64,000 nt of DNA, from NCBI GenBank assembly GCA_029555205.1, contig JAKPTB010000080.1:1-64000 (forward strand). The letters are read 5' to 3'. The notes under the pieces were generated by a model. That model was given only the letters and a program-made list of their open reading frames with translations, was not told where the DNA came from and ran no database searches. Shown here piece by piece: positions 22,570 through 30,186 of the stretch. Within the stretch, counting starts at the first letter, position 1. Each line of letters begins with the position of its first letter. The position numbers and the translations under genes are program-made. The DNA is from Bacillota bacterium (lineage in GTDB: Bacteria; Bacillota; Desulfotomaculia; Desulfotomaculales; Pelotomaculaceae).

Positions 22570-22815
22570 CCCGTTCCTTATGGAGCGAAGGTTGTTACCG
22601 GGCAATCTAACCCGCCGACCCCTTTGCCTCGAAGGTACCGGGCGTAATCCACAGGCGGGTAGCCTGGCTTCCGGCAGGTTTAGTCTGACTTACAACCAAG
22701 CCCGTTCCGGGGTTGTGAGGTGAAACTTTGTGCCGGTTACAGTGGCGGGACCGCTCAGGTTTTACACCTGATTCCCCAATTATCCCCCACTACGGGGACC
22801 TGTGGCTTAATATGT
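22570..22815 (-). promoter_or_regulatory. Cobalamin riboswitch upstream of cobU operon
   Basis: Reverse strand GGGAATCAGGTGTAAAACCTGAGCGGTCCCGCCACTGTAACCGG...AGTCAGACTAAACCTGCC, matching the cobalamin aptamer core and a B12-box variant. Confidence 0.9.
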
Positions 22816-22874
22816 AAAATATTCAACATCCAGAGCCATAAATCCTGCCATAAAAGCCAGCGCTTAACTTTTTA

Positions 22875-27593: not shown

Positions 27594-28124
27594 TTATTTG
27601 TTGAATACCAGAACCTTTCCTTCCTCACGGAAGGCAAAAAGACATTTATCCTCGGTGGAATCCTTGATGCTCTCCAGCATGTTATCGATCATTTCTTCCT
27701 GGGCCAGCAGGTCTTCTTCAATTAACTGCTCATGATCTTCCGTAACAAGGTTGGTATTGAGATATTGGCGAAACAGTTCAACAATCAGGGTTATTTCCTC
27801 CTGGGCGAGGGTATCCAGATCCCGTTGCACCTCAAGCAGGGTGAGGTTGCCGCAGGCCTGGTGAGTCAGGGAGACAAATCTCGTCTCTTTACCCTCCAGG
27901 TGATTGTATACTTCGATGCTGTCCAGCAATTTTTCTTTAATGGTATTAAGTTCATTTCCATCCAGATCCTGTAAATAGATGAAGGTAAACTTCAATAAAT
28001 GATGATCAGGATCAAAATTAATCGTAGCCACTTCCGGGTAACGTAATAGAATCGAGATCAACAGGCCAACGCTGTCTGTTACATTGTTCCTGTTTCCTTT
28101 ATAGCGGAATCCCAATGTTGTCAC
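27594..28124 (-). CDS. Conserved-looking protein of unknown function between rny and ymdB
   Basis: Complete 176-aa ORF in a conserved operon; no recognised motif. Confidence 0.7.
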   Translation of the reverse strand: MTTLGFRYKGNRNNVTDSVGLLISILLRYPEVATINFDPDHHLLKFTFIYLQDLDGNELNTIKEKLLDSIEVYNHLEGKETRFVSLTHQACGNLTLLEVQRDLDTLAQEEITLIVELFRQYLNTNLVTEDHEQLIEEDLLAQEEMIDNMLESIKDSTEDKCLFAFREEGKVLVFNK

Positions 28125-28366: not shown

Positions 28367-29902
28367 CTATTTCGCATATTCCACAACCCGGGTTTCCCTG
28401 ATTATGACAACCTTAATTTGACCAGGGTAATCCAGTTCGCTTTCGATTTTTTTTGTTATATTTCTCACCAGGCGAATAGCGCCAAGGTCATCTACCTTGT
28501 CGGGCTTAACCATAATCCGGATTTCCCGCCCAGCCTGGATTGCAAAAGACTTATCCACTCCTTCAAAGGAGCTTGCAATTTCTTCAAGCTTGGTCAGACG
28601 TTTAATATAGGCTTCCAGTGTTTCCCTGCGGGCTCCGGGCCTTGCTGCCGAAACAGCGTCAGCTGCCTGTACCAGTACGGCAACGATAGTTTGAGGTTCT
28701 TCGTCACCATGGTGGGCGGCAATAGCGTGAATAATCTCGGGTGTTTCACGGTATTTTTTGGCCAGGTCAACCCCGATGGCGACATGGGGCCCCTCTACCT
28801 CGTGGTCCACGGCTTTACCGATGTCGTGCAGCAAACCAGCTCTTTTGGCTATTTGAACATCAATGCCCATTTCCGCTGCCATCAAGCCGCAGAGGTGGGC
28901 GACTTCGATGGAATGTTTTAAAACATTTTGCCCGTAACTTGTACGGAACTTCAATCGTCCCAGAAGAATGATCAGCTCCGGATGAATACCGTGCACACCA
29001 ACATCAAAAGTAGCCTGTTCGCCGGCCTCCCTGATCTGGGTATTGACTTCCTTCTGAGCCTTTTCAACCATCTCTTCAATGCGGGCAGGATGAATTCTGC
29101 CGTCGATGATCAGCTTTTCCAGGGCAATCCGGGCCACCTCTCTGCGAATCGGGTCGAACCCGGACAGAATTACAGCCTCGGGCGTGTCGTCAATAATCAG
29201 GTCAATGCCGGTTAGTGTTTCAAAAGCACGTATGTTCCGACCTTCACGGCCGATAATCCGGCCTTTCATTTCATCGCTGGGCAGGGGTATTACGGCTACA
29301 GTAGCTTCAGCAACGTGGTCGGCAGCACATCTTTGTATGGCCAGGGAAATAATTTCACGTGCGCGTTTATCCCCCTCTTCTTTGGCCTTGTTTTCAATTT
29401 CTTTAATGATCAGGGCTGCTTCATGCTGAATTTCTTTTTCAATGTCTGACAGCAGAATCTGCTTTGCCTCTTCTGAAGTAAGACCTGAGATACGTTCCAG
29501 TTCAGCAACTTGACGGTTGTAAACCGCTGTTAGCTGTGCCCTGGTTGCTTCGATCTCCGCTTCTTTCCGGCTGAGATTCTCTTCCTTTTTCTCAATGGAA
29601 TCGACTTTACGGTCCAGGGTTTCTTCCTTTTGAACGAGGCGACGCTCTAATCTTTGCAACTCCGACCTTCGTTCACGGTTTTCCCTTTCAATGTCATTGC
29701 GAAGCTTTAAAACTTCTTCCTTGGCTTCAAGTATAGCTTCCCTTTTCTTGGCTTCGGCGTCCTTTTCAGCTTCATCTAAAATCTTTTTTGCTTCGGATTC
29801 GGCGGAGGCTATTTTAGCCTCGGCCAGGGATTTCCTTACAAAATATCCTACGGCAAAAGCCGCAAGGGCAACTCCTGTTACAATAAGAATAATGCTATCC
29901 AT
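28367..29902 (-). CDS. rny: Ribonuclease Y
   Basis: [27 protein letters not shown]...[46 protein letters not shown]...HD domain [10 protein letters not shown]. Confidence 0.98.
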
Positions 29903-29950
29903 ATGCGTTCTCACCTCCTTGGAAATTCAATTTTGTCCTCCTTGCGCAAC

Positions 29951-30155
29951 AAAAAAACCGAGTCAAACTCGGTAAAAATAGAACGGGTACCACTTCTTAC
30001 TTGTCCAAATTGCGGTAAGAAAATGGCCCCTTTAACGGGCACTATTTTAACAGCCGGCGAGTAAACTCCCGGCCAGGTTCTTACCTCCGAAAGTATTGGA
30101 CTTTATCTATAATAAAACCCGTACAGTGGTATCCAATTCTATTTTCTACCAGGCT
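29951..30155 (-). ncRNA. Structured ~200-nt RNA between recX and rny: 6S-like RNA or rny leader/attenuator
   Basis: TTGACA-17-TACAAT promoter (30181-30186, 30158-30163); nested stems 30137-30145/29975-29983, 30125-30134/29985-29994, 30096-30101/30003-30008, 30078-30085/30014-30021; terminator 29951-29972. Confidence 0.6.
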
Positions 30156-30157
30156 TA

Positions 30158-30186
30158 ATTGTACAGGTTTTTTTTAAAACTGTCAA
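30158..30186 (-). promoter_or_regulatory. Sigma-A-type promoter
   Basis: TTGACA N17 TACAAT on the reverse strand. Confidence 0.85.

Follow-up and report, generated by a model that had tools for sequence, protein, structure and literature searches.

The region upstream of rny in this genome is best read as an unrecognised attenuator-type leader of the ribonuclease Y gene, and perhaps as a feedback sensor for RNase Y. In many Bacillota this enzyme sets off most of the decay of mRNA. Chance is far from accounting for the leader: about 100 species have kept its promoter, its 5′ end, the pairing of its stem and its terminator. Among the functions considered, we regard as reasonably probable that of a dedicated cis-acting leader of rny. 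Through conditional termination it would most likely set how much RNase Y is made, and probably regulate it, the likeliest signal being the activity of RNase Y itself.

Promoter, transcript and predicted fold

The window (the whole stretch of 64,000 nucleotides that was analysed) carries the leader on its minus strand, upstream of rny, with recA, recX, rny and ymdB as flanking genes. The features of the locus are as follows (minus sign, reverse strand):

30158-30186 (−): sigma-A type promoter of the leader, TTGACA-N17-TACAAT, matching 11 of 12 consensus positions
29951-30151 (−): rny leader RNA of ~200 nt (202-nt transcript), with ends predicted from promoter and terminator
30135-30151 (−): conserved 5′ end UGGUAGAAAAUAGAAUU, the 5′ strand of closing stem P1; class consensus UGGGAGAAAAUAGAAUU, nearly invariant in the class
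30125-30134 (−): 5′ strand of P2, GGAUACCACU, pairing with 29986-29994; compensatory changes across families
30098-30121 (−): hairpin P3, CGGGUUUUAUUAUAGAUAAAGUCC, with a conserved AUAGAU at 30105-30110; motif enriched relative to shuffles
30107/30106 (−): G-A, candidate RNase Y site by analogy with PMC11780869
30014-30085 (−): internal arm P4 (GGUAAGAA/UUCUUACC) bearing hairpins P5 and P6; MFE fold
~30053-30074 (−): hairpin P5, on arm P4; MFE fold
~30020-30048 (−): hairpin P6, on arm P4; MFE fold
30001-30006 (−): conserved GGACAA on the 3′ side of the internal loop, near-invariant in the family and found in several other families
29975-29994 (−): 3′ strand of closing stem P2+P1 (AGUGGUACCCGUUCUAUUUU); MFE fold and covariation tests
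29951-29973 (−): intrinsic terminator ACCGAGUUUGACUCGGU plus U tract (ACCGAGTTTGACTCGGT-T6), recognised by sequence; core conserved in the class
28370-29914 (−): rny, ribonuclease Y (TIGR03319, 796 bits; Pfam RNase_Y_N, KH, HD)

The near-consensus promoter noted in the sequence-only reading is confirmed by its conservation: the −35 element is TTGACA in 93 of 94 class members, the spacer is 17 nt in 85 of 94, and the −10 element is TACAAT, TAAAAT or TAGAAT in all 94 class species and TATAAT in none (counted with the search pattern TA, three free bases, T). In the window's family the promoter spacer AAAACCTGTAC is also conserved; with TTGACAG it makes up an imperfect inverted repeat. Transcription is predicted to begin at 30151/30150, ~7 nt past the −10 element and close to UGGGAGAAAAUAGAA, which is nearly invariant across the class, and to end at the T run of the terminator. 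The likely start codon of rny is the ATG at 29902, with a Shine-Dalgarno sequence at 29914-29920. Elsewhere in the window, a cobalamin riboswitch (RF00174, 81.4 bits) lies at 22637-22818 (−), and a gene for a 176-amino-acid protein that matches neither Pfam nor NCBIfam lies at 27594-28124 (−), between rny and ymdB, where it is kept in most class members whose locus extends that far.

The proposal of a structured RNA with a closing stem held up well. The MFE of the 202-nt transcript was −68.2 kcal/mol, against −48.8 ± 4.2 kcal/mol for 200 dinucleotide shuffles (z = −4.6; no shuffle as low). Both the closing stem AAAATAGAATTGGATACCACT / AGTGGTACCCGTTCTATTTT and the pairing GGTAAGAA/TTCTTACC are present in the MFE structure, so that part of the nested complementary segments originally described is recovered; GTCCAA/TTGGAC and TGGCC/GGCCA are absent from it, the former because it competes with hairpin CGGGUUUUAUUAUAGAUAAAGUCC. 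The long rod shape was not recovered either: the MFE structure branches, and at least one additional hairpin lies within what had been taken for a 5′ bubble.

Within the leader, ATAGAT occurs in 19 of 49 genus-level leaders (1.6 ± 1.3 in shuffles) and the looser ATA[TG]A[TA] in 40 of 49 (12.6 ± 2.4 in shuffles); GGGUUU followed by a AUAUAGAU-like sequence is enriched as well. The internal arm P4 varies between families in both sequence and length, and is absent or reduced in versions of 140 to 160 nt. Leaders in the class measure between about 140 nt and 350 nt or more, and the shortest leaders overall about 90 nt; three minimal leaders of ~95 nt (L188, L229, L192) consist of closing stem and terminator with little between. 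In one Pelotomaculum-like genus (L007, L008, L010) the stem of the best fold runs on into the base of the terminator. As to a possible conserved leader peptide, the Shine-Dalgarno-like GGAGGTAAG of the window's copy was not kept in relatives compared by eye.

Covariation, conservation and linkage to rny

The sequence-only reading proposed covariation in relatives as a check, and the closing stem does covary. A sequence-only alignment of 36 class members contained 78 cells with double changes (shuffles, 43 ± 4.8; slid controls, at most 42), and a model-fitted alignment of 95 sequences contained 372 (128 ± 9.5). An alignment-free partner swap gave a mean of −18.0 kcal/mol for each leader's own 5′ and 3′ segments and −12.0 kcal/mol for permuted ones (best of 5000 permutations, −13.8 kcal/mol), a comparison in which a few mis-anchored segments bias against the result.

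By blastn, the leader was matched in 34 of 41 relatives, and none of the 25 species of the GTDB family lacked it. Within the family its DNA remains 70 to 95% identical, while the RecX protein drops to 40 to 50% in the more distant genera. A covariance model built from 23 family sequences found it in 94 of the 113 species of the class Desulfotomaculia (order and class are the same species set), in every case immediately ahead of rny and in the same orientation, which bears out the placement of the RNA in the 5′ leader of rny. In the window's own genome (G000) the model gave a single hit. The description “between recX and rny” is accurate in the window; elsewhere recX and even recA can be absent, and in several genomes neither lies upstream of the leader, while rny is still downstream.

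Among the 19 class species negative for the model, one (G026) has a diverged leader at its rny locus; the other 18 comprise 6 without detectable rny, 9 with a diverged promoter-leader-terminator arrangement, some of them carrying a changed stem ACCGT/ACGGT, and 3 without a leader. With diverged copies included, the leader is present in about 104 of 107 class species with detectable rny. Three loci, L304 and L305 (one genus) and L302, have rny and lack the conserved leader terminator; L304 and L305 retain the promoter, but the hairpin ahead of rny differs. A scan of 84,980 genomes with an exact pattern gave 53 matches, of which L147, L149, L155, L165, L167 and L172, all in unrelated bacteria, had no rny nearby and were judged to be chance.

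Beyond the class, 399 genomes of the phylum were searched, and among the model hits inspected all but two weak cases lay upstream of rny; these two were judged to be chance. Across 90 rny upstream regions sampled from the phylum, mostly one per family, a strong terminator preceded the Shine-Dalgarno sequence in 53 (3.7 in shuffles) and a CCGRG..CTCGG core was found in 47 (0.5 in shuffles). About half of the 90 sampled phylum genomes share this layout ahead of rny, and in many of them the terminator core is shared as well. None of 20 phylum rny loci compared with Rfam gave a match.

Termination, read-through and competing explanations

The terminator placed after the structured RNA in the sequence-only reading is well supported (29973-29951 (−)), its core CCGAG...CUCGG being nearly invariant in the class; in the sequence-only alignment CCG.G of the core is invariant, whereas P2 covaries freely. 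We rejected the explanation that this core is a genome-wide habit, since in ten genomes the pattern fell at 0 to 2 distinct sites per genome and, where matching, was almost confined to the rny leader (the pattern misses variants, hence some of the ten score 0). The gap from the end of the terminator stem to the Shine-Dalgarno sequence has a minimum of 13 nt and a median of 42, and in 61 of 89 loci it does not exceed 45 nt. Gaps of 13 to 45 nt are too short to hold a promoter and start site, so in those species rny must, judging from the spacing, be reached by transcription through the terminator. The RNA had been called independent; it does have its own promoter and terminator, but independence is doubtful because it never leaves rny and because the space between terminator and gene is often too small for another promoter.

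Control of rny by partial or conditional termination in a cis leader is therefore the likely reading of this arrangement of sequences. Under the proposed mechanism, transcription would start at the conserved promoter, the first ~25 nt of the ~200-nt leader would pair with the segment just ahead of the intrinsic terminator, and rny mRNA would come only from the fraction of polymerases reading through. RNase Y might cut the leader while it is still being made, with the conserved AUAG|AU as one candidate site, and so cut loose the 5′ strand, whose pairing partner adjoins the terminator. Both the regulation of termination and the part of RNase Y in it are inferred; the activity of the enzyme as the signal is plausible, since in B. 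subtilis rny is autoregulated in part through its leader (PMC10303841) and RNase Y prefers G|A sites (PMC11780869).

Some leaders of the phylum have a 5′ end (GGGAGAAACU and variants) able to pair with the loop and arm of the terminator (AGUUUCUACUC), an arrangement that resembles an antiterminator. This pairing was stronger than in shuffles (P < 0.05) in 12 of 49 leaders, with a combined P = 6 × 10−10 across 35 leaders longer than 130 nt that are related and so not independent. In the window's class it was no stronger than in shuffles (L204: P = 0.20; L205: P = 0.79; L206: P = 0.14); there the partner of the 5′ end lies immediately ahead of the terminator, and the MFE structure accommodates both stem and terminator. 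For both reasons no clear antiterminator is demonstrated in the window's class, and a clean one, unsupported by energies and shuffles, finds support only in other families. Of the two identities offered in the sequence-only reading, the rny attenuator is the better. As in a terminator-type attenuator, an intrinsic terminator lies between promoter and gene, and the spacing indicates indirectly that the gene is reached by read-through. A more speculative extension, which we consider doubtful, is a phylum-wide device that gauges RNA-decay capacity: the 5′ end of the leader would compete for the rny terminator and RNase Y cleavage would remove that strand, so that excess enzyme would shut off rny transcription co-transcriptionally. 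The sequence pattern read here as conditional termination would look no different if partial termination were constitutive or if the released RNA were functional.

A rival reading, a trans-acting small RNA merely encoded ahead of rny, with read-through of a leaky terminator feeding the gene, strikes us as unlikely. An almost invariant strong promoter and a strong terminator would yield a discrete ~200-nt RNA, and the conserved internal motifs (GGGUUU..AUAUAGAU and GGACAA) resemble a binding surface. Yet none of the 94 class members has the RNA detached from rny, and the phylum hits inspected show no exception but the two weak matches judged to be chance; the internal arm, on which such an RNA would depend, is conserved less than any other part; and whole leaders vary from about 90 to 350 nt. 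We give still less credence to a riboswitch-like leader that senses a small molecule or ion. Its attraction is that conserved sequence motifs sit within a covarying scaffold followed by a terminator, but no Rfam riboswitch matches, the motifs and the internal arm degrade between families, and rny offers no metabolic logic.

The identity as 6S RNA, or as a second copy of it, was suggested by length, promoter and terminal closing stem and is now scarcely credible: a clear 6S gene lies at another locus of the genome (G000:C169:31317-31498; 100.5 bits, cutoff 46.4), which weakens the 6S reading by the standard that reading had itself set, and the leader gives no 6S score at E ≤ 10, is branched both in its MFE structure and in the individual folds of relatives, and keeps a constant rny context. 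Against Rfam as a whole, no family reached its gathering cutoff, and at E ≤ 10 neither 6S (RF00013) nor T-box, the two covariance models proposed for comparison, matched; the one match at that level, to ncr1175 (15.7 bits, gathering 60, E = 2.7), was taken as chance. Conservation of the region, which the sequence-only reading had made the other half of that standard, is present in 25 of 25 family and 94 of 113 class species, and the interpretation as a functional RNA therefore stands although the 6S interpretation falls.

Relation to known systems

The closest parallel is the rny 5′ UTR of Bacillus subtilis, where RNase Y autoregulates partly via a 164-nt 5′ UTR of its own mRNA (PMC10303841). 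The gene is the same, with a dedicated sigma-A promoter and a ~160-nt leader through which the enzyme partly controls its own message; control there is described as cleavage plus RNase J1 entry, whereas here the leader is a conserved fold that bears a terminator. The text of the B. subtilis study does not mention a terminator or describe a conserved leader fold (PMC10303841). In Escherichia coli, RNase E autoregulates via a hairpin of the rne 5′ UTR (cited in PMC10303841), the leader of the gene for the main decay endonuclease there serving as a sensor of the enzyme, as is proposed for rny here; that RNA is unrelated, however, and acts on mRNA stability rather than on a terminator.

T-box, riboswitch and ribosomal protein leaders share the order of promoter, structured leader, intrinsic terminator and regulated gene; none of them matches here, and the gene presumably regulated here encodes an RNase. 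The likeness to 6S RNA (RF00013) extends to ~200 nt, a strong promoter and a long terminal closing stem, whereas the leader lacks a model match, is branched, always lies upstream of rny and shares its genome with a separate 6S gene. The raiA motif RNA, or ModT, is described as a large structured noncoding RNA conserved across many Bacillota (PMC11706538); the rny leader resembles it in being large, structured and found in many Bacillota, and differs in matching no Rfam model and in appearing cis-tied to rny. Within the open-access PMC literature, neither an rny attenuator nor this leader RNA was found.

The leader RNA thus has no Rfam family despite its presence in about 100 species, and in a looser form across much of the phylum. 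What sets the amount of RNase Y has been studied mainly in B. subtilis, for which cleavage by the enzyme of its own message was described. If a conserved leader with a terminator acts on the gene as well, control of RNase Y gains a transcriptional layer, one older than the class.
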